A stretch of 64,000 nucleotides of DNA, from the NCBI RefSeq assembly GCF_009017415.1, contig NC_092405.1:2728001-2792000 (forward strand), read 5' to 3'. The notes below the pieces were generated by a model that was given only the letters and a program-made list of their open reading frames with translations, ran no database searches and had not been told where the DNA came from. The translations under genes and the position numbers were made by a program. This stretch comes from Aspergillus flavus. Lineage: Eukaryota > Ascomycota > Eurotiomycetes > Eurotiales > Aspergillaceae. Positions 3,344-50,074 of the stretch are shown one piece after another (position 1 is the stretch's first letter; each line of letters starts with the position of its first letter).

Positions 3344-3915
3344 TATCAGCTACCCTAATTCTAAAGTGGAATAGTCTTAGGGCTAGTTAAAATAAATAGA
3401 AAAATTAAATAGAATAAATAAATTAAAAAAAAAACTAGAGTTAATTAAATAATAATTCTAAATTAAATAGATAGATAAAGCTTAAGTAATCTAAACTCTA
3501 GATTAAATAATGGAAATAAATAACTAGAGCTAAAATAGTTAAAGCTTTAGATTAAATATAAATAAAAAAAATTAAAAAAATAAATTAATATCTAATAATT
3601 AAATAATTAAATAATAATCTATTTAAAAAAATTAATTTAATTTAGTAGAGGATTAAATAGCTTTTTATATTAAATTAGACTTATTTAGATTTATTAAATT
3701 AAAAATTTATTTAATTTTTCTAATTTAATATTTATTTAATATTTTTTTAATTAAAATATAGTTATTTAATATTATCTAATTAAAATTTTTTATTTAATTT
3801 CTTTAAATAAATAATATTCTAGAAAGATTCTAGATTATTATCTAAAAAAGAAATATTCTAAAATAACTCTAGAATATTTAAAAAAATTTCCTAAATAGAA
3901 AATATATCTCTAACA
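3344..3915. mobile_element. Solo LTR, family B, inserted in gypsy A leader
   Basis: A 572-bp unit flanked by a perfect 5-bp duplication AAAAT (3339-3343 and 3916-3920). The uninterrupted site is preserved in the other family A copy near 59985-60000, which proves insertion into an existing gypsy A. On the opposite strand it begins TGTTAGAGATATA. It is the reverse complement of the copy at 47575-48133 and collinear with 56198-56790. No internal coding region is associated, so it is a solo LTR left after recombination. Confidence 0.85.
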
Positions 3916-5329
3916 AAAATTTAAATATTTTATTATTAATAAATTTTTAAAAATTAATAATATAGTTATTTAATGATTTATAATTTAAAGAATTTTTCAA
4001 GAAAGTTTTTTAATAATTTAAAATATTTAAATATTTAATACTCTAATAAAATTAATTATTAAAGAAAATAAAAATAAAATTTTTTAAAAAAAATTAATAT
4101 TATTATTTAATATAATTATATAAATAATTAAAATATTAAAAATAATTATTTAAATATATTTTATAAATAATAGATTTAACAATTTTAAATTATTTTAATT
4201 TATTTATATCTATTTTTTCTAAAAATAAAATTATATTATAAATATAAAAGATTATTTTACTATAAATATATTAATTATTTTAATAATAAAAATTAAATAA
4301 ATATAATATTTAAAAAGTTTTTTAAAAATTTAAATTAAAAAAATAATAGACTTTTTTTATATAGTTCTTAATTTAAAAATAAATTAATATTAAAATATTA
4401 TATATTATTTTATAAATAAAAGATAAAATAATAAAAATATATATAAATAATATATTTAAATTTTAAAAATATAATAGATTTTTTTAAATAATTTTTTTAT
4501 AATATAAATATAGATTTAAATATTTAATTAAAAAATTTAAAAAAATTATTTATATAATTTATTAGCTATAAATTTTAAAAAAATATAATATAATAATTTA
4601 ATATTAATTAATTTTTTATTATAAATATAATTTATATAATAATAAAAAAATATTAAAAAAAATAAAAAAAGAATTATAGAATTTAAAAATATTTTAAAAT
4701 TATTAATTTTATATCATTTAAATAAATTAATAAAAAAATAAAATTATATTATATAAATAGTAAAATAATTATTAAATTTTAAAATTAATAATAGTTTTAT
4801 TTTTTATTAATATTTATTTTAATATAAAATTATTATATTAAAAATTATTTTTAATTATTAATATATATAGAATATATTAATAATATATTAATATTATATT
4901 ATAATAAATTAATTATATTATAATAAATTAAATATTTAAATTTAAATAATTAATTAAAAAAATTAAATAAAAGAATATAAAATAAAATATTATATTATTA
5001 TTTTTTAAAATTTAAATTATTAAATTATTTTAAAATATAAATAAATATATTATTAAAAAAATTTAAAAAGTTTTTATTAAAATATTTAAATAATTTATAA
5101 AAATAATATATTATATTTTATTATAATAATTATATATTAATTAAATATTAATAATAAATTATTAAAATTATTATTTTACTATAAAATAAATCTATATTTT
5201 TTTAAAAAAAAATATTTAAATTTTTATTAAAAAAATATATATTTAATATTATTAATAAAAAAAATTTTTATTTTATAAATTTCTATATAATTTTTTATAA
5301 TATAAATTATAAACATTATAAAAATATTT

Positions 5330-5520
5330 TATTAATATAATTAAAATATTAATATTTTTTATTTAAAAATTTAATAGTTTATGGAAATTATATATTAATT
5401 ATTAAAAATTAAATATTATAATTATAAAAAATAAATATTTATTATTTTATATTAATAGATTAATAGATTAACTTATAAAAATAAAATATTTTATTAAATT
5501 TAATTTAAAAAATAATAAAT
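5330..5520 (+). pseudogene. Gypsy reverse transcriptase remnant (element A)
   Basis: In the plus frame around 5386-5513, the residues read KLYINY*KLNIIIIKNKY, then LLFYINRLID and KIKYFIKFNLK. These correspond, after reversal of expected RIP changes, to the gypsy reverse transcriptase block that contains the DYRxLN and KNRYPLP motifs and the FTKLDL start of the palm. The stop marked here stands at an Arg or Gln position. The same segment is found on the minus strand at 57130-57300, where it is better preserved. The catalytic YxDD box was not located with confidence. Confidence 0.6.
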
Positions 5521-6789
5521 AGAAAATAGTATTTTAAATATATAGTAATAGTATTTTAATGTATATAATATACTAGTAATTCTTTAAATATATATTATAT
5601 TATATATTTAAATAATTTTTTTATTTATTTATAAATAGAAAAAATATATATATAGTATATTAATAAAATATTATTATATCTAGAGTAAATAAATCTATAT
5701 ATAAAACTATCTAAGTATAATTTTTATTAAAAAAAATAATATTCTTAAAATTTATTATAGAATTTAATAATATATATATTAGTTTAGAATATATATATTA
5801 TTAATAAATAATTAATATTAAAGTTTTTTATAATATTTAGATATTTTTAAAATTTATAAAATATTTTAGAATATTTTATATATTAATATATCTAGATTAC
5901 TAAATTTTTATCTAATATATTAAAAAAAATATAAAAAAAAATAAGACTATTTATTTTTATTAAAAAAATATAAAAAGTTTTTAATAAATCAAAAATAATA
6001 TTTAATAATTTTCTAATTTTATATTTTAATTGTATATAATAGATTAAAATAATTATAAATATTTTAAGATTCACTATTATAAATATTCTTTTATAATCTA
6101 TTAATAGAATTAAAAAATTTTATTAATATTTTAATTAATAATTAATTATTTTTTATTTAAAAAAATTAATAAAGATAGAAGATTATTATTTTATTTATAA
6201 TTAAAAATTATTTACTATTATAAAATATTTTAAAATATAAAGATATTATTTTAAAAATATATTATATATAATCTATATATAAAATAATTATAAAAATTTA
6301 TAATATTTTTTTTAAAAAAAATTATAAAATTAAATAAATATTAGATTTAATAAATAAAGCTTTTAATAGCTTATAATTTTTAAATAAAATATTAATTTAA
6401 ATATTTAAATTTAATTTATATATTTTTATAATAAAAAGATTATAAAAATATTTATAAAAAAAGAAATATTAAATTATTATTTATATTTAAAAAAAATTAT
6501 AGATAATATTAAATAATTAAAAAATAATAAAGTATTTTTAATAACTAGACTAAAGATTTTAATTATAAATTTAAAAATTTTAGAATTTTTAATTTTTAAA
6601 ATAATAGTATAAAAAATTATTAAAAAAAATATTTATAAAATAATATTATATTCTTTTTTAAATATAATTCTATAGATTTAATAAAAAAATATTTTTATTA
6701 ACTAGATTTATAATAAATTATTATTTAATACAAAAAAGAGTATATATGAAAATAATATTATTAAATTAAATAATAATTTAATAAAATAA

Positions 6790-7330
6790 TAGTATATTAA
6801 TAATAAATTACTATATTATAGAGAAATTATCTATATATTTCTATATTTTATATTTAAATAAAAGATTTTAAAGAAATATTATAATAATTCTTTTATAAAT
6901 TATTTAAATTAAAAAAAATTCTCTTAAAATAATCTATATAAAAATATTAAAAACTATATTTAAAATTATTTTATTTATTAAAAAAATAAAGATTTTTAAA
7001 AAATTATTATAAAATAAATTAATTTTCTTTTTATGTTAAAAAAATTATAATAAGATTTAATAATAAACTTAATAATTAATTTATTATTATTAAATTAAAA
7101 TAATTATATATATAATATAATTTTTATAGTAATAAATTAATATATAAGAATTATAAAATATTTATTTATAATTAAAACTATAATTATAAAAAAACTAATT
7201 AATATATTTTTAAATAAAATTATTTATAAAATTAGATTTTTATTAATTTTAATTATTAATAAAGATTTACTCTTTATTAATATATATTAAATATAATTTT
7301 ATAAAAATTTTTATATAAAAAATTATTTAA
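6790..7330 (+). pseudogene. Gypsy integrase remnant (element A)
   Basis: The plus-strand frame starting near 6790 reads NKLLYYREIIYI, then KILKKYYNNSF, matching the DGLLYYRGRIYVP and EILxxxHDxPLAGH blocks of the integrase zinc-binding domain in Metaviridae-type elements. Downstream, a stretch equivalent to the PWxDISxDFI start of the core and an IINKDLLFI block (equivalent to ISDRGSxFT, carrying the second catalytic Asp) occur in order up to about 7330. Numerous stops interrupt it. It would integrate the element cDNA if intact. Confidence 0.6.
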
Positions 7331-9227
7331 ATATTATTTTTAATTTATAAATAAATAAATAAATAAATATAATATTAAAATTAAATTTTTAAAATATATC
7401 TATAGATATATATAAAATATTAATAAAATAATTAAATAGATTAATTAATTACTATAGAATTTATTTATAATAATATTAAAAATATTTATATAAAATATTT
7501 ATTTTTTATAGTTTAATAAAATACAGAATTAATAGTTTTTAGCTTTAAAATAATTAAATTAATAATATTAAATATATTAATAAAACTATAATTAAAAAAT
7601 CTAATTAATATTTAAATTAAATTAAAAAAAATTTAAAAAAGATAATAGAATAGTAAATAAAAAAATATAATAAATATTATAGAACTATATAATTATATAT
7701 AAAATAAAAAATTCTATTATTAATAAAAAATATTAAATTAGAATATTTAAATAAAAAATTAGATTTAAAGTATAATAATTTATTTATAATTATAAAGATT
7801 ATTAAAAAATAAATATATTATTTATAATTATTAAAAATATATAATTATATTTATTTTATTTTTTATATATTATTATTAAAATTATATTATTAATATATAA
7901 AAATAGAGACTAGAAAAGCTTAGCTAATTATTATTAATAATTAAAAAAATAAAAAATAAAAAAATATTTATTTATTAAATATATTAAAAATTATAATATT
8001 TTATTAAATAAAAAAAATAATTAAGCTATAAAAATTTATAAAAATTAAATAAAAATCTTAAAAATATTATTAAAATTATTATAATTCATTAAAAAATTAG
8101 TAAAATATGAGAGATATTTTATTAATTATAAAAAAAATATAATTTTCTTTTTATAGAATTTTAATATATTTTTAAATAATATACTAAAATTATTTTTTTT
8201 ATTTATAAAATTTTAAGATTTAATAAAAATATTATAAACGATTATATTTATATTATTAATAAAAATATTTATATAAAAAAATAAAATAATTTTATTCAAT
8301 TAAAAAATAAAAAAATAAAAAAAATAATTTAAAAATATAATATAAAGTATTTACTAGTAGATTTTAAATAAATAAATAGAAAATTAAATAAATAAATTAT
8401 TAAAAACTCTTTTAATTAATTAATTTATTTTTAAAAAAAGACTTTATATCACTAAGGTTTTGCTAGATATTTATTAAATAGAATAGATTATAATTTATAT
8501 TCTATAATATTATTAAATATAAATAGATTTTATTTAATTTATTAAAATAATTAATAATTTTTTTAATATATTTAGTTAAATTATTTATAGTTTTTATAAT
8601 TTTTTAATTTAGTAATAACATTTATAAATAAATAATTTTAATTTATATAAATTCTAATAATATAAGATATAGTTTTTTTTATATATTTTATATATAGAGC
8701 TATTTAATATTTTAAAATATATATCTTAAGAATTTTTTAATATTAATAAAAATAATAATAAATAATAATTTAATATAATATTTATAGAATATCTATAAAC
8801 TATTAGTATTATTCTTTTATATTATATTTAGAATTAGATTATCTATTTATTTAAAAAAATTTAAAAATATTAAAAAAAATAATAAAAATTATAGTAATAA
8901 TAAAAATAATTTCTAGAGAAATAAAAAAAAAGTTAAATTTATTATATTATCTATATTTTTAAAATAATTTAAAAAAATAAATATAATTATAAAAAATATT
9001 ATAATTTATATAAATAAAAAATCTATAATATTATTTTAAAAGTATTTTATTAATATTTTAATTATTTAGAACTATTATATAATAATATATTAATTTTTAT
9101 AATTTTATTATTAAATATTTTTAGTAAAGTATATTTTTATATTATATAGTTTATTAAAATAAAATATTAAATATTTTAACATATAAATTTAAATCATAAT
9201 AGTTTATTTTTTTTAAAAAAAGATAAT

Positions 9228-20063: not shown

Positions 20064-21315
20064 TAAATAAATATAAAGTTTATTTTTTTATAAAAAAAGT
20101 TTTTAAATAAAAAAATAATTTATATTTAATAGTCTATAAATTTTAATAATAAATAGAACTAGATTTATAAATTAAATCTATTTTTTTATAATTTTAAATA
20201 ATTTATAAAATTATAATATTTTAAACTCTATAATAATTAATTTTTATTTTATAAAACTAAATAAATATTTATTTATAGATTATTATAATACTATATTAAT
20301 TATATATATAGATAATATTATAATAATTAATTTTAATATTTATATTAAAAAAATAAAATTATACTTTAATAATTTATTAAATATAATAGATATTAATATA
20401 ATTAATTATTATTTTAAAATAAAGATTATATAAAATAAAAAATTTTTTATATTAATATCAATATAAAATATATATATAAAGTATATAATAATTATTTTTA
20501 ATTTTAATTTATATAAGATTTTATCTATTGTAATAGTAATAAATATTAAAATTATTAAGATTAATATAAAAATTAATTTATAAATTAAATTTAAAATAAT
20601 ATTTATAATGAAAAAGTTATTAAAATATATATATTATTTTAAAAATAATTTATTAAATTATATATTATAATTAATTTATTTTCTATATTTTATTTTTAAT
20701 AATAGAATTCTTTTTAAATTTATTAATATTAATAATTATTTTTTTATATATTTTAATAATGCTTTTAGCTATATTAATACTAATTATATAGAATATTTTA
20801 ATATATTATAATTAATTATTAAATATGTTTTTATATTAATTAATAATTTAATTTTATAATTATTTAAATTTTAATTTATAATAAATCTATTTATATATAA
20901 AACTAAATATACTACTATATTTATAATAAATAAAAAAATAAAATAGATTATTAATATTCTAAAAAAATAGATTTTAAAAATATAACATTAATAATTTTAT
21001 ATATTAATTTTATATTAATTATATAATATATTTAAAATATATAGTTTTAGATTTATTTTAAATATATTAAAATCTTAATATACTAGATTTATAAAACTAT
21101 TTATAATGATAATATTAATTTATAATATATATTTATAATATATATTTATAGAAATAAATTTTATAAATCTATTAATTAAATTATTTATAAAAGTATAATT
21201 TAAATAATTAATTAAAAAGATTAAAATTTACTAATAGATTTAAGATACTATAGATATTAAAGATATTATTTTTTTATACAATTTCTAAGATTTTAATTAT
21301 ACTATTGAAAAAATA

Positions 21316-21495
21316 TATAGTTATCTAGAAATTTTTTATTAAAATAAAGACTTTCTATCTATAATTATATAATTTAGACTAGTATAAAAAATCTTTCTTT
21401 ATCTATAGAATTATTAAGAATTTAAGAATTTTTATCTTTAATTAGAAACTTATATTCTTTATTTATCTACATATAGTAAATTTATAGAGAAACAA
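21316..21495 (+). repeat. 3' LTR of copia element D
   Basis: Right partner of 14973-15150. Similarity fades at about 21485-21495, just before the Tc1 element. Whether Tc1 inserted inside the last bases of this LTR or right beside it cannot be decided by eye. Confidence 0.6.
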
Positions 21496-21504
21496 CATAC
21501 ATGG

Positions 21505-22783
21505 GGGGTCAAAAGTCTGACTACACTAGCGCGTTTCCGCCGACACGTCAAAAAATTGTACTTTCTTCAACTACCTACCACGCCACCATTATGAGGTCTT
21601 TTGGAACCGAAATTAGTGGAAATAGAAGGTTGAATCAAGAGCTTTCTACTAAGACGCGCGCAGTAATTATATCTAGTCTAGAGAATAATATATCGCCTAC
21701 TTAACTTGTAAAGTAATTTAATGTCTGTCGCTCTACTATTTACTCAACCAAAAAATGCTTTTAGCACCACTATATCTTGAAAAGCAAGTCTAGAAAGGGT
21801 AGGTCTTAGAAGCTTATGTTCGCTGAAAAGCGCTATATATATCTACTTGCCCGCCGGAGGCCTAAAATAGGCTATAAGGCCCTAATCGCTAGCAGTGGTT
21901 TTTTAATCTTTTACTCTACTATTAAGCGCGTACTTAGAACTTTTTAATTAAAAAAATAGAAAGCTAAGAAGCGTATATCTCTAAGACCTAACGTGGCTAA
22001 AAAACGCCTTTAATTCGCGCGTATGTAGGCCAATTCTATCTATTTATTTAAAATAATATTTTCGGACGAATATTCTATCCAACGAAAGTCGAATAATTTA
22101 ATTTAATATATGTTCCGCTTTTTTAATAAAGTATATAGAAAAGATCTAGTTAATCTAACAAACTATAGAAAAGATATTTCTTAAATGGTTTGGGGCGCTA
22201 TATGGATTGGTGGCCGATCTAAATTGGTCATTCTAGAACAAGATGAATTATCGCCTCAAGGTGGATACTCTACCAAATCCTACCTTATTTGTCTAGAAAA
22301 GGGGCTTCTACTAATCTACAAGCCTGGATCTATATTCCAATAAGATAATACAAAGATTCATGTTTTCTACGAGGCGCAGGACTGGCTAAAAAGACATGGA
22401 ATTTAGATGCCGGATTGGCCTGCACACTCGTCTGATTTAAATTCTATTGAGCATCTCTGGAACCTGTTTAAAAAGAAGCTTTTAGAGCTCTATCCAGAGC
22501 TCTTTCTAGGCGGCAGATCACAGATTGATTAGAGGCAATTTAGGGAGAGTATTTAAGCTGTTTGGTGGGCTATTCCTTAGGAGCGAATAGATCGCCTTAT
22601 TTGCTCTATACCACGTAGACTTCAGGCTGTACGCCTAGCACGCGGCTGGTATACAAAGTACTGATATGGGGAATCTATATAATCAATTTGTAGATCAATA
22701 TTATTTAAATTGATTGAGAAAATCGAGTTTGAATTCATTGCATTTTTTGCCGAAATGGCGGGTGTAGTCAGACTTTTGACCCC
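21505..22783 (+). mobile_element. Tc1/mariner DNA transposon, least RIP-damaged element
   Basis: 1279 bp bounded by perfect 22-bp inverted repeats (21505-21526 and 22762-22783; starting GGGGTCAAAAGTC). A TA follows the right end (22784-22785). The left end is preceded by two extra G instead of TA, so one side of the target duplication looks altered. G+C is far higher than in the surrounding DNA. It encodes one transposase reading frame with no frameshift but many stops. Confidence 0.9.
21591..22664 (+). pseudogene. Tc1-type transposase with 15 nonsense codons and no frameshift
   Basis: From ATG 21591 (context caccattATG) to TGA 22662-22664 the frame is exactly 358 codons. The DNA-binding part (about 15-140) has a Tc1-type helix-turn-helix (FNVCRSTIY near 43-51) and a basic region. 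The catalytic triad is intact: D159 in IFSDE, D252 in DNTKIH, E287 in IEHLWN, with 34 residues between the last two, i.e. DD34E as in Tc1. Fifteen internal stops occur at codons 38, 42, 58, 73, 119, 123, 141, 146, 172, 198, 251, 272, 314, 322 and 330. All are TAA or TAG, and several stand where the family has Gln or Trp (for example before DN at 251). This is the pattern of RIP on a formerly intact gene. The upstream ATG at 21501 lies in the terminal repeat and is not the likely start. Confidence 0.9.
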
Positions 22784-22785
22784 TA

Positions 22786-23394
22786 AGTTTAGAATATTTG
22801 TTTAATTATATTAATAAAATTAAATATATATAATATATTCTTTATATAAAATATTTATATTTTATAGTTTTTATAATCTTTAAGTATTTGCTGTGTACTA
22901 AATATATTTATTAAAAATTTATTAATCTTAATTATTTAATTTATATCTCTAGTTAAATTCTATATTTAATAGATAATCTATTTAAAATCAAATAGAGATA
23001 TTTTATAATTATTAATCTTATTTTATCTATAATATTTAAGAATATTTTATTAATTAATTGTATTAATTTATATTTTTTAACTAATTTATGTAATAAAAAG
23101 TAATTTTATAAAAATTAATTATACTTAAGTAGACTATTAAATCTAATTTTAAATTTTATTTCTAATTCTCGCTAATATTCTAGTCTAGCTTAAATAAATA
23201 GTCTTCTAATAGTAGTAGATATTTAATATTTTTAATTATATCTAGTAAATTTAATAAAAATAGGAATTATAATTTAGTATATTAATAATACTTTTATTAT
23301 TATTATCTATTACTCTTAAATATTAAAAGTTTTTATTGTAATTAATAGATCTTTTATTTTTATTAATTTCGATAGTTTCTCTAGATTTATAATC
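22786..23394 (-). other. Right internal part of inferred gypsy element C
   Basis: About 600 bp of AT-rich DNA between the Tc1 element and the right family C repeat. By position it would be the leader and start of gag of a minus-strand gypsy element. I could not read a protein block here. Confidence 0.3.
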
Positions 23395-25080: not shown

Positions 25081-25852
25081 AATATTAATATTAAAAATAA
25101 TAATATTCTATTATTAATAATAGATATAGAATAATATATTAAATAAAATAATAAATAGAATATAATAAATAAAAATAAAAATAATAAAAAATATATATTA
25201 ATATTAATTAAGTACTAAGTTTTTTATCTTAATCTTTATATTTTTTAAATTTTTTATATAGCTTATTAAATATATATTTTTTATTCCATTTAACTATATT
25301 TTAAAAATTAATTTTTATATCATATAGTAATTTTTTAATAGAACTTAGTATTTTTACTGAAAAAATAATTAATTATATAATATTAATATATTTTAATTAA
25401 ATTAAAAAATATATTAAAACTAAATATATATTTCTATATAAATTAAGATTAAAATAATTAAAATATTTATTAAATTAATATAAATTAAAGAGATTAATAT
25501 ATATTATAATATTATATAAAATAGATTTTTAATATTATTATTATTATTCTAATTTTTTTAATTAATATTAGATAAGTAAATAATAATAGATTGATATAAT
25601 CTATAGATATAATAATAATAGTAATAAATAAACTATATAAATCTAAAAATATTTAGTATAATTAAAGATAATAATTATAATATAAAAAATAAATAAAAAA
25701 GTTAATTAATAATACTAGAGTAGTAACTAAAATAGATATTAAAAACTATATTTAATTAATAATAAAAAATATTAATAATTATTTTAAAATAATAATAGAA
25801 ACTATAAATAATTATATTATTATAGAAAAATCTAGAATTAATATTAATATAT

Positions 25853-25963
25853 TGTAAGAGATATCGCCAGGGCCCGATATTCCATAAGGCCAAAAGATTA
25901 AATAATTCTGAATCAATAATTTAGAATACTCTAATTAGATCTATATAGCTTCCCGCCATTATA
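25853..25963. repeat. Left 111-bp LTR of the miniature element
   Basis: Starts TGTAAGAG and ends TTATA (from TTACA). Its hairpin stem has lost some pairs through RIP-type changes relative to the copy at 2883-2993. Confidence 0.85.
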
Positions 25964-26357
25964 ACTCTTCTTTTTATAGAGAAAAACTTATTCCGAGCCT
26001 TTAGTATGCGCGCCTAGCTACTATAGACTTAATCTCTAATCTTTAAAGATTATAAGTAGATAAATCAGATTAAATTCTAGTATTGTTTAGGCCCCTTATC
26101 TAGTTCTCTCTAGGATCCACAGCGGTCTATATATATTTAAATAGACTATATAATCTATTCTATATATATCTAAGTATATGATCTATTCTATATCTGGGCC
26201 CTAGACCCCTATAGAATCTTCCTATCTCTGTAGGATTCTGCTTTATCTTTATAGAGATCTACCCTATCTGCCGCACACTATAGATAAAGGTTATATCTAG
26301 GATTTGAATCTAGAATCTCTAGGTCCTGTACTATCTATTCGTTGATTTAGAATTAAT

Positions 26358-26468
26358 TATAAAAGATATTGCCAGGGCCCAATATTCCATAAGGCCAAAA
26401 GATCAAATAATTCTAAATCAACGATTCAGAATATCCTGGTCAGGTCTATATAGCTTCCCGCTGTTATA
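26358..26468. repeat. Right 111-bp LTR of the miniature element
   Basis: Starts TATAAAAG (from TGTAAGAG) and ends TTATA. It retains CCAGGG and CCTGG pairing partners and most of the internal stem. Confidence 0.85.
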
Positions 26469-28039
26469 TATATTAAAAAATTATATAATAATAATAAAAA
26501 TTAATTATAAAATAGAAATTAAAATAATAAATAATAGAATTATAAAAACATATTATATAAAAAAATAGAGATTTATAAAGATTATTAAAATTATACTATA
26601 AATAAGTATTAATCTATTTCTATATTTTAACTATTATAGATTAAATATTTTTACTATTAAATAAAATTAAGCTATAAATTAATAGTTAATAATAAAAATA
26701 AATAAATATTATTTTACTAATATTTTTATTAAATAATAAACTATTTATTTTAAAATTAAAAAAGTTTTATATTAGAGTATCTCTAGTATTTATATTTATT
26801 AAATATAAATAAAATATAGTTAAATATTTTTTTAAAAATATATAATATCTGCGATATACTATTAATTAATAATATTTATTTTTTATTATAATAATTAAAT
26901 AGTTTTAAAATAGTCTATTTAATTAAATATTACTATTATTATTAAAATTATAAAAAAAATAATCTATTTTTATTTTTACTAGTAAATCTAATATTATTAT
27001 AATATATTAAGTATTATTTAATTTAATATTAGAAATAAATTAATTACTAAATAATAATAGATTCTAAATTATATTAATAAATATTTAATTTTTATTGAAT
27101 AAAATAAATATATTTAGATTATATAAATCTAATATTTATTTAATAGTAAATAATTTATAGTTTTATATTTTTTAAATATATTATTAGATATTATTTATCT
27201 ATTATTAATTTTATTGATTTAATTCTAATTATACTAAGACTAGTATAGTATTTTATTATAGTATAATTAATATAAAAAATAATTATTAAATAATTATATT
27301 AATATAATAAACAATAGTAAGATAATTAATAATTATAGAAAGAAATTATAGATATATTATAAAAAAAATATTTTATAAAAAATAAATATAGTTAAGTTAA
27401 AATAAAAGTAAAATAGTTAATAATAATATAATAAAATAAAATATATAATAAAGTAAAAAATATAATAAAATAAAATAAATAAAAGAATCTCTATAAAAAT
27501 AATCTATAATTATTTATAGTACTAGTTAATTATTTTTTAAATTTATTTATTAAATTCTATATATTAATATTATTTATTTATATCTATTAATTAATTTTTA
27601 TACTATAGTCTTTTTATTTAAGTAAATATTTAATAATAAATATTTTAGATTTTCTATAATATTAGATATATTTATTAAAAAAATTATTATTAATTATTTA
27701 TAGAAATTAAATATATTATTAATTATATAGATTTATAGTAGCTAGTTTAAATTATATAATAGAAATTATTAGATAGATTTTTTAAATTAAAAAAAAATCT
27801 ATCTTATATACTAGCTATTCTATCTATTTAAAAATAATAAAAAAATTAATATATTATTATATAAATTTTATTAATTTTTTTTTGAATTAAAAAATAATAG
27901 TTTTTATATAAATATAGATATATTTAATTATTAATATTAAATTTAATTATTTTATAAAATTAATTATAGATAATTTTTATTTATATTTCTATAAATATAA
28001 GTATCTTTTTTATATCTATTTTGATTAAAAAATTTTGAT

Positions 28040-47574: not shown

Positions 47575-48133
47575 TGTCAGAGATATATTTCCTATTTAGA
47601 AAGTTTTCTTAAATATTCAAGAATTATTCTAGAATCTTTCTAGAATATTATCTATCTAGAAGAAATTAGACAAAAAATCCTAACTAAATCATATTAAGTA
47701 ACTATATTCTAATTAAAAAATATTAGATAAATTTTAAATTAAAAAATATTAAATAAATTTCTAATTTAGTAAGTCTAAGTAAGTCTAATTTAATATAAAA
47801 AGCGGCTTAATTCTCTATTAAATTAAATTAATTTTTTTAAATAGATTATTATTTAACTATCTAATTATTAGATATCGATTTATTCTTTTAATCTTTTCTA
47901 TTTATATTTAATCTAGAGCTTTAACTACCTTAGCTCTAATTATCTATTTTTATTATCTAATCTAGGGCTTAGATTACTTAAGCCCTACCTACCTATCTAA
48001 CCTAGGGTTACTACTTAGTCAACCCTAGCTTTCTTATGTAATTTAGTCATTCAATTCATTTATTCTATTCAACTTTTCTATTCATCCTAGCTAGCCCTAA
48101 GACTATTCCGCTTTAGAATTAAGACAGCTAACA
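47575..48133. mobile_element. Solo LTR, family B, best preserved copy
   Basis: 559 bp from TGTCAG to CTAACA with a perfect 5-bp duplication AAAAT (47570-47574 and 48134-48138). It is the reverse complement of 3344-3915 and of 56198-56790. Its right half keeps normal words (CTAGCCCTAAGACTATTCCG), giving a good guide to the original sequence. Flanks do not match gypsy A, so this is a separate insertion that happens to share the same 5-bp duplication as copy 1. Confidence 0.85.
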
Positions 48134-48203
48134 AAAATCTATATTATGTAACTGCTATTAATTTTATTTTTTTAACTATTTAATTATATAATACAATAAT
48201 ATA

Positions 48204-50074
48204 ATGTAATTGGTAAACAAGTGGGTCACGCAAACAAGCGGGTCAATATACACATTTTTCTATGTATCTATTTTTTTAAGGCTATTTAACCACTAGCTAT
48301 ATTACTAAAAATACTTAAATTATTAAAATCTTAGATAGAATAGAAAGATAGAGTTTTATTAGCTATATTAACTATTAAAAAAAATTATTAATATTTATAT
48401 ACTAACTTATATTTTTAATATATCTTTTATAATATTTTAAAAATATCTATTAAATAATATATTTTAATTAAATATATATATAAATAATTATAAAATAATT
48501 TCTAATAAAAAGAAATTATTTAAATAGTAGATTCTATTACTAAATAAATATAAAGTATTTTCTTAATCTATATATATATAAGAAATAGTTAATATTTTAT
48601 TTTTAAAATATAATATTATTTTCTTCTCTATTATTATAGAAAAAAAATAAATATATAACTTTATTAAATATATATTTAAATTTAAAGTTTATTTTATATA
48701 TTATTATAATTATTAGTATACTAAAGTAAAAAATTCTAAAATTTTAGATATTTAATTTAAATAAATAAATAAAACTATTTAAAAATATAATATAGCTTTA
48801 AATAATATATATAATTTTAATAAAATAGGATTTATAATAAATCTAATAGTTATAGCTAAAGTTATTACTAGATTTAATATATTAAAAAAACTATTTTTAT
48901 TATAGTTAAAAAATTAAAAATAGATTATTACTATAGAATATATTAATTCTAATAAATAGATTTTACTTTTTTATATTATTTTTAAAAATAAAATATATAT
49001 AAAGATTTAGTATAAGAATAATAATTTTTTTTTTAATTAACAAATTAAAATTAGTTTTAATAGTTAAATAAATAATAAAATTAATTTATATTAACTATAA
49101 AATTATTTTATATTTTATACTATTAATTAATTTATAGAAAAATACTATTTATTTATTCTAGATAATTATAATAATTATTTAATATTTTAATTTAATTAAA
49201 TCTATATAAAAAATAATATTATACTAATCTATATATTTATATATATTTTTTATAAATTTTAATTATTTAATATTACTATTTTTTTATTACTAAAAATTTT
49301 ATATAAAAATTTAATTAAATTTAAAATATACTATAAATATAATTATATTAATAAAATTAAATTTTTAAAAATCTATTTTAAAATCTATATAAAGATTTTT
49401 ATTAATAATAATATATATAATATTTTTAAAATTATTGGTCTAGTTTTTTTATTTTCTAAGTGTATTTTTTTTAGTTAATAATTTAATTTAAAATCTCTAT
49501 ATTTTTAGATAGTAAATTTAATAGTTAAAATAATTTAATATTTAAAATATTTTATATAGTTAAATAATTAAAAAAATCAAAATCTATATTTAAAAAATTA
49601 TTTAAAAATTAATCTTATAATTTTAATTTATCTATTAAAATTAATTTAAATTAATTAATTAAAAATACTAAATAAACTATAAATAATATAATAATATTAA
49701 AATATTAATTAAAGTAATATTAAGCCGTGTATAAAAGATAATTTAAAAAATAAAAATATTCTATTAAATAGATTATTTTTAAAAAAGATATATTAATATC
49801 TAAAGTCTAAATTTTTATTAAATACTAAAACTAAATAAATAAAACTATATAAATAGATAGATCTTTATTTTTATTAAATTAATTTTTAAATATACTTTAT
49901 CTAAATATTTTAAATATAATATATAGAATTATAAAATTATATATTATCTAAATTAATAGAATTATTTATTTTTATATAGAAATCTAAATTTATAGTATTT
50001 TAACTATTTTAATTTTTAATATAGTAGCGCATTGACCCGCTTGTTTATATAACCCGCTTATTTACCAATTATAT
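48204..50074 (+). mobile_element. pogo/Fot1-type DNA transposon, copy 2 (subfamily 2)
   Basis: 1871 bp flanked by TA (48202-48203 and 50075-50076). The inverted ends are about 46 bp and start ATGTAATTGGTAAACAAG. Within each end the motif AACAAGCGGGTCA occurs twice, a likely pair of transposase sites. The interior is collinear with copies 1 and 3 and carries the same plus-strand transposase remains. The first catalytic block reads IYNFNKIGF near 48803, so this copy keeps the Gly that copy 1 lost. Confidence 0.85.
48360..49450 (+). pseudogene. pogo/Fot1 transposase, RIP-inactivated (copy 2)
   Basis: Same order of remains as copy 1: the IYNFNxxGF catalytic block near 48803-48830, the LxxFxLL stretch equivalent to the FSPLK block near 49300, and dense stops at Gln and Trp positions. 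The DNA-binding region is more damaged than in copy 1. Non-functional. Confidence 0.6.

Follow-up and report, generated by a model that had tools for sequence, protein, structure and literature searches.

Structure of the element

The stretch analysed here, called the window throughout, comprises 64,000 bp of the Aspergillus flavus genome (C4:2728001-2792000, the eight contigs being numbered C1 to C8). At positions 25853-26468 of the window lies a noncoding unit of 616 bp bounded by two long terminal repeats (LTRs), which together with its relatives elsewhere in the genome almost certainly represents a family of terminal-repeat retrotransposons in miniature (TRIMs). The layout of the unit suggests that its sense strand is the minus strand, and that its reverse transcription may be primed by the end of its own RNA.

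In this orientation the 5' LTR occupies positions 26358-26468, the 394-bp interior 25964-26357 and the 3' LTR 25853-25963. The LTRs are both 111 bp long and equal at 94 of the 111 sites, all 17 differences being transitions; a BLAST comparison within the window aligns them with an E-value of 9e-32. The 5' LTR is also identical at 101 of 111 positions to a solo LTR of the same family, likewise on the minus strand, that borders the AT-rich block (2883-2993). The element is flanked by a perfect TATAT target-site duplication (25848-25852 and 26469-26473). On its own this duplication is weak evidence, because the surrounding DNA is so AT-rich: the GC content is 33% in the element against 9% and 7% in the 1-kb flanks. 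The solo LTR has its own perfect duplication, GCCTT, at 2878-2882 and 2994-2998. A scan of the window element finds no ATG frame longer than 19 amino acids. The sequence-only reading of the window, which had described LTRs of exactly 111 bp with certain ends, an interior without coding capacity and perfect duplications around both the element and the solo LTR, is thus borne out to the base.

A family of LTRs in the genome

The genome searched consists of 37.74 Mb on 8 contigs, and all counts of LTR matches, interiors and longer elements are lower bounds. A query with the solo LTR of the window returned 31 matches, a diverged copy added three, and a pattern tolerant of repeat-induced point mutation (RIP) added two, the reversed control of that pattern giving 0 matches. 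The resulting 36 matches correspond to 34 loci, since in two cases a pair of same-direction matches lies within 1 kb, and a fragment on C2 with an LTR remnant brings the number of loci to 35. The copies found are two complete elements and one old fragment; the other 32 matches are LTRs or parts of LTRs. Alignments covering at least 105 of the 111 positions were obtained for 22 solo LTRs, of which 11 are flanked by perfect 5-bp duplications, 8 by duplications matching at four of five bases, and 3 by two or fewer matching bases. That the family has moved, and that its host is a fungus, were both part of the sequence-only reading, and the 19 of 22 near-full solo LTRs with four or five matching duplication bases uphold the former.

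The interior was found at three places: in the window, at C3:2783097-2783453 and at C2:6055011, where a fragment of it remains. The copy on C3 is a complete sister element of 587 bp with 111-bp LTRs, an interior homologous to that of the window element and its own AGTAA/AGTAA duplication, which strengthens the case made by the TATAT repeats. Because this second element carries the same interior between its LTRs, the LTR pair of the window is not a chance neighbourhood of two solo insertions, an outcome that the sequence-only reading had named as fatal to its proposal. Segmental duplication was rejected as the origin of the sister, as the masked 600-bp flanks of the two elements share nothing; without masking, only AT-rich stretches align, at 66-75% among the matches listed. 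At distances of about 14 and 22 kb, the C3 element has further same-direction copies as neighbours, each with its own perfect duplication. Two additional pattern searches for the interior remained close to their controls. The first gave four places, three of them the known copies and the fourth with 3 mismatches, a level at which the control gives 2; the second, whose control yielded 11 places, yielded 16, including the three known copies and the end of one known solo LTR. Elsewhere on C3 (C3:1674299-1674623, copies L002 and L029) an inverted truncated LTR copy and a full solo LTR are separated by about 160 bp.

The 111-bp unit begins with TGTAA and ends with TTACA, so that its termini form 5-bp inverted repeats accompanied by 5-bp duplications, and it mostly occurs singly. 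These properties would also suit a small DNA transposon, the 616-bp unit then being a composite of two. We find this scarcely credible: in both complete elements the units share their orientation, enclose homologous interiors, lie within outer duplications and have a purine tract next to one of them, and the 36 matches include just the two same-direction pairs within 1 kb, both with about 0.5 kb from start to start.

The genome searches brought up nothing longer that carries these LTRs or this interior, so that the autonomous full-length relative whose existence would have undermined the sequence-only reading did not come to light. A related proposal is that the family descends by deletion from an autonomous retrotransposon with the same LTR, extinct here or living in other strains, and that this LTR is possibly LTR2_AO. 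LTR2 is known by its LTR alone, and strain NRRL 3357 has 4 copies of it, located in AT-rich elements outside the centromeres (PMC9910759); TRIMs, moreover, are held to require a partner. The searches, on the other hand, found this LTR or interior in no element that bears pol. We consider such a descent rather doubtful, and it is in any case compatible with the unit being a TRIM.

Sense strand and the LTR inverted repeat

On the minus strand, the purine tract AAAAAGAAGAG ends one base before the 3' LTR of the window element (25965-25975), and its counterpart in the C3 element, AGAAGAGA, four bases before. Thus in both complete elements a purine run of 8 or 11 lies within four bases of the 3' LTR, where a polypurine tract would be expected to prime second-strand synthesis. 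At the plus-strand end of both complete elements, purine runs near the LTR stay shorter than 8. A TATATA motif, a candidate core promoter read from the LTR, occupies LTR positions 17-22 in the minus-strand sense (26447-26452). On account of the purine tract, the position of the TATA motif and the complementarity of the primer binding site described below, the sense strand is very probably the minus strand, with 26358-26468 as the 5' LTR; the sequence-only reading had the element probably the wrong way round.

The LTR contains an inverted repeat with 10-bp arms and a 3-nt loop (LTR positions 37-59, window 26410-26432), whose arms pair in 92.6% of 310 cells. In 6 of 31 copies one pair reads A-T in place of T-A, flipping between LTR subfamilies; this flip is one evolutionary event in one subfamily. 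The covariation score of the inverted repeat was reached by none of 500 shuffles, and the number of such cells by 2 of 500.

Candidate self-primer and its binding site

The interior opens, in the minus-strand sense, with a proposed primer binding site (PBS) that starts 2 nt after the 5' LTR (26339-26355). Of its 17 bases, 16 are complementary to LTR positions 45-61 (26408-26424 in the window) when the clean LTR copy L002 is used for comparison; with the 5' LTR of the element itself the site forms 17 continuous pairs. None of 5000 single-base shuffles and none of 339 other interior windows reach the 16/17 match. At the same place, the old fragment on C2 is complementary at 10 of 10 bases, which is achieved by 16 of 5000 shuffles and by 0 of 261 other windows; its site was paired with L002 because the fragment's own LTR is lost. 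The energies of the RNA duplex between PBS and LTR are -21.2, -9.3 and -11.9 kcal/mol in the window, C3 and C2 copies, respectively. Equally good energies are found in 0, 1 and 3 of 1000 shuffles of these copies, and in none of 246 other windows for each.

The proposed primer segment lies about 30 bases past the TATA box, a distance that supports LTR positions 45-61 as the putative 5' end of the RNA. In a folded leader starting at LTR position 45, the pairing with the PBS forms in both complete elements. The neighbourhood of the site is also the part of the interior best conserved against the C2 fragment (about 80 bases in the sense direction): the first 81 interior columns of C2 are 78-79% kept relative to the other copies, against 48-52% in the middle. 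On these grounds we judge priming of the TRIM by its own RNA end to be the likelier course of its replication. The predicted layout appears well supported in the window copy and supported in the C2 copy, the match in the C3 copy falling within the range of shuffles.

Several observations weigh against this reading. The 10/11 match of the C3 sister is equalled by 376 of 5000 shuffles and by 50 of 312 other windows. When the folded leader starts at LTR position 51, the pairing is absent in the window copy and partial in the C3 copy. Hairpin pairs with changes on both sides are no more frequent than in shuffles (424 of 500 reach their count), the folding of the whole LTR is unremarkable (z of -1.33, with 22 of 200 shuffles equally good), and the LTR inverted repeat makes the PBS resemble an LTR arm in the direct sense as well, less closely. 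Conservation in the C2 fragment extends to another stretch, columns 401-466, which is 71-78% kept. The last LTR base and the seven bases that follow form the palindrome AATTAATT in all three copies, recalling the site of GalEa Copia elements. Finally, domain searches of the genome recognised no intact LTR-retrotransposon enzyme gene.

The palindrome bears on a competitor of self-priming. The TRIM could have a tRNA, a tRNA half or a hairpin site like that of GalEa as its primer and owe its movement to a Copia element; the match between PBS and LTR would then be a by-product of the LTR inverted repeat. The GalEa palindrome includes the last base of the LTR (PMC5445492), as does the 8-base AATTAATT in three of three copies. 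The PBS of the fungal FunCo1 Copia elements starts with ATTAA and is complementary to an internal region of tRNA-Lys (PMC5445492), and the TRIM interior starts with ATTAA too; decayed Copia reverse transcriptase relics are, moreover, present in the genome. Yet the FunCo1 PBS is matched at only 6 of 11 sites (by eye), and the second half of the GalEa site, CHSeq2, finds its best counterpart at 6 of 9 bases in each of the three copies, as against the 16/17 complementarity to the LTR located where a PBS belongs. We regard priming of this kind as unlikely.

Were a self-primed TRIM transcribed by RNA polymerase III, a precise start by that enzyme would give the primer a precise end. The TATA motif is about 30 bases upstream of the proposed start, and an A-box-like and a B-box-like site follow about 22 and about 109 bases downstream of it, a layout familiar from the yeast U6 gene. 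The B-box-like 11-mer (26300-26310) is found in three of three interior copies; the A-box-like 11-mer (LTR positions 72-82, 26387-26397) is speculative. The case against polymerase III consists of the T5 and T7 runs that precede the 3' LTR and are possible stops, the mismatch of the A-box and the lack of tRNA structure, and a self-primed TRIM transcribed by this polymerase seems highly unlikely. A tRNA gene or tRNA-derived LTR was rejected, as ARAGORN (window) and Rfam (window and three loci) found none; a hammerhead LTR of the retrozyme kind was likewise rejected for want of an Rfam match in the window and three loci. A weak Rfam match to mir-3938 in the copy L031 falls in an AT-rich inverted repeat and is not credible.

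Proposed cycle and partner

Taken together, the observations make it fairly probable that the element is a non-autonomous TRIM of A. flavus with minus-strand sense, self-primed and moved by the enzymes of another element. In Tf1 and Tj1, a segment at the 5' end of the RNA serves as the primer (PMC4600332). By analogy, transcription of the TRIM would start about 30 bases after the TATA box of the LTR, at LTR position 45-51 or so, and the 5' end of the RNA would fold back onto the complementary site just past the 5' LTR, to be cleaved and then to prime reverse transcription in the manner of Tf1. The second strand would be primed by the purine tract, and copying and insertion with 5-bp duplications would be carried out by the enzymes of another retrotransposon, the family being mobilised in trans. 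Solo LTRs would be left by recombination between LTRs.

The partner might tentatively be sought among elements of the Tf1/sushi type, such as AFLAV/Gypsy4. The A. flavus element AFLAV is said, going by the title of its paper, to be a Tf1/sushi element. It has been equated with Gypsy 4 (PMC9910759). A Gypsy4 relic region (L057), at 4-18% GC, is decayed beyond any reading of its LTR ends. In the whole genome, the rve domain has 0 matches, RVT_1 three (on C7, C1 and C2) and RVT_2 two, both with stops. The RVT_1 match on C7 we take, from its frame layout, to be a LINE-type open reading frame, and that on C1 looks to us like telomerase. The LTR of the TRIM is absent, at an E-value of 1e-3, from the four neighbourhoods of enzyme matches (L047-L050, with rows assigned by position). 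Among these neighbourhoods, L047 on C7 holds at 4050-8048 an open reverse transcriptase frame of 1332 amino acids beside an ankyrin-repeat-like frame, and L049 (C3:2697370-2698041) is a reverse transcriptase relic of the Copia kind, interrupted by 7 stops. The AT-rich element in which this relic lies has been assigned to Gypsy 1 (PMC9910759).

Centromeric location and decay

Among the relics reported from the chromosome-4 centromere of NRRL 3357 is a Gypsy 2 copy at 2731528-2736930 (PMC9910759), which corresponds to the window from position 3528 on. The GC content of the window drops below 20% at about 3100, and the matching numbers indicate that the window lies in the chromosome-4 centromere of this strain. 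AT-rich DNA is found on both sides of 8 of the 35 loci, on chromosomes 3, 4 and 7; two loci at the edges of AT-rich blocks were left out of the eight, and three matches were classed as outside by position alone. The AT-rich places on C3 and C7 are probably centromeric too, judging by base composition. All eight centromeres total 889,576 bp, or 2.4% of the genome, and the binomial chance of at least 8 loci falling within them is 1.3e-6. Such an excess of the family in three of eight centromeres bears on the choice between targeting and the mere survival of small retroelements there.

When the four LTRs of the two elements are compared with L002, 43 of their 45 changes are C-to-T or G-to-A. The same two types account for 28 of 36 changes in six centromeric solo LTRs but for 15 of 49 in seven euchromatic ones, a pattern that points to RIP-like decay in centromeres. 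The C-to-T changes favour CpA modestly (19 of 43, as compared with 13 of 52 available). Three solo LTRs (L005, L009 and L011) are 96-99% identical to L002 in 1-kb flanks with 6-13% GC; near-intact in low-GC surroundings, they were probably inserted after the flanking DNA had decayed.

The window holds two further GC islands in its AT-rich DNA. The one at 21505-22783 reaches 42% GC and contains a short frame with VWGAIW; its ends, which lie about 1.28 kb from each other, are perfect inverted repeats of 22 bp, and we presume it to be a relic of a Tc1/mariner-type DNA transposon. On its left, 21300-21488 recurs at 83-90% (once at 72%) on C1-C6 and C8, and on its right 22789-22889 recurs also on C7, at 94%, in both cases among the 40 matches listed. 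The DNA flanking the island may therefore be a repeat common to all eight centromeres, the places being taken as centromeric by position. The published account, in contrast, reports no significant similarity between non-homologous centromeres (PMC9910759). The second island, at 47801-48300, is small and reaches 28% GC within the AT-rich block.

Comparison with known systems

TRIMs are defined as noncoding elements below 1 kb whose direct terminal repeats measure 100-250 bp and which have a PBS complementary to a tRNA and a polypurine tract (PMC6934838). The A. flavus family agrees with this definition in size (616 and 587 bp), in its 111-bp LTRs, in the noncoding window copy, and in the purine tract and target-site duplication of both complete elements. 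It differs in that the candidate priming site matches the element's own LTR, where the definition has a site complementary to a tRNA. The Helenus and TRIMp3 elements are TRIMs of fungi, animals and plants that carry a tRNA-like sequence in the LTR (PMC10886601). The present family resembles them as a fungal TRIM with 5-bp duplications and similar size, and differs in that the ARAGORN and Rfam searches found no tRNA in LTR or interior, the interior having just the B-box-like 11-mer.

The sequence-only reading had noted that TRIMs are mostly described from plants and had called for the naming and survey of a fungal family. Fungal TRIMs as such are not new: they have been described from rust fungi and some Agaricomycetes (PMC10886601), from Cochliobolus (PMC4112212) and from Phakopsora (PMC10067951), and have been searched for in Pseudocercospora (PMC13041039). 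The LTR-only family LTR2_AO of the A. oryzae/A. flavus group (Repbase 2006), likened here by description and not by sequence, may be an earlier name of the TRIM LTR. AFLAV/Gypsy4 shares the host, and relics of Gypsy 4 are listed in the same centromere (PMC9910759); it is a full-size coding element, set beside the TRIM by description and not by LTR sequence.

At the place expected of a tRNA PBS, the fungal GalEa Copia elements have a palindromic Conserved Hairpin Site whose span takes in the last LTR base (PMC5445492), and the 8-base palindrome of the TRIM copies recalls it. AATTAATT is not among the two common published CHSeq1 sequences, and no good CHSeq2 follows 12-41 bp further on (6/9). 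The authors of the GalEa study found no LTR complementarity (PMC5445492). Tf1, Tj1 and other self-primed LTR retrotransposons share with the TRIM a site past the 5' LTR that is complementary to an upstream LTR segment (PMC4600332, PMC6934838). They encode Gag, reverse transcriptase and integrase, whereas the TRIM encodes nothing, and its RNA start is a proposal made here from sequence.

In the open-access literature, a search joining TRIMs with self-priming led to a paper on bivalves which cites self-priming from other elements only (PMC6934838); joining TRIMs with Aspergillus led, going by titles, to works on Zymoseptoria and Phakopsora. What seems new here is a complete element that most likely reads on the minus strand and has the apparent layout of self-priming. 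The usual view of TRIMs is that they are primed by a tRNA and live as parasites of larger elements. If the layout proposed here is true, self-priming extends to elements free of coding sequence, and hints at which enzymes can move TRIMs.
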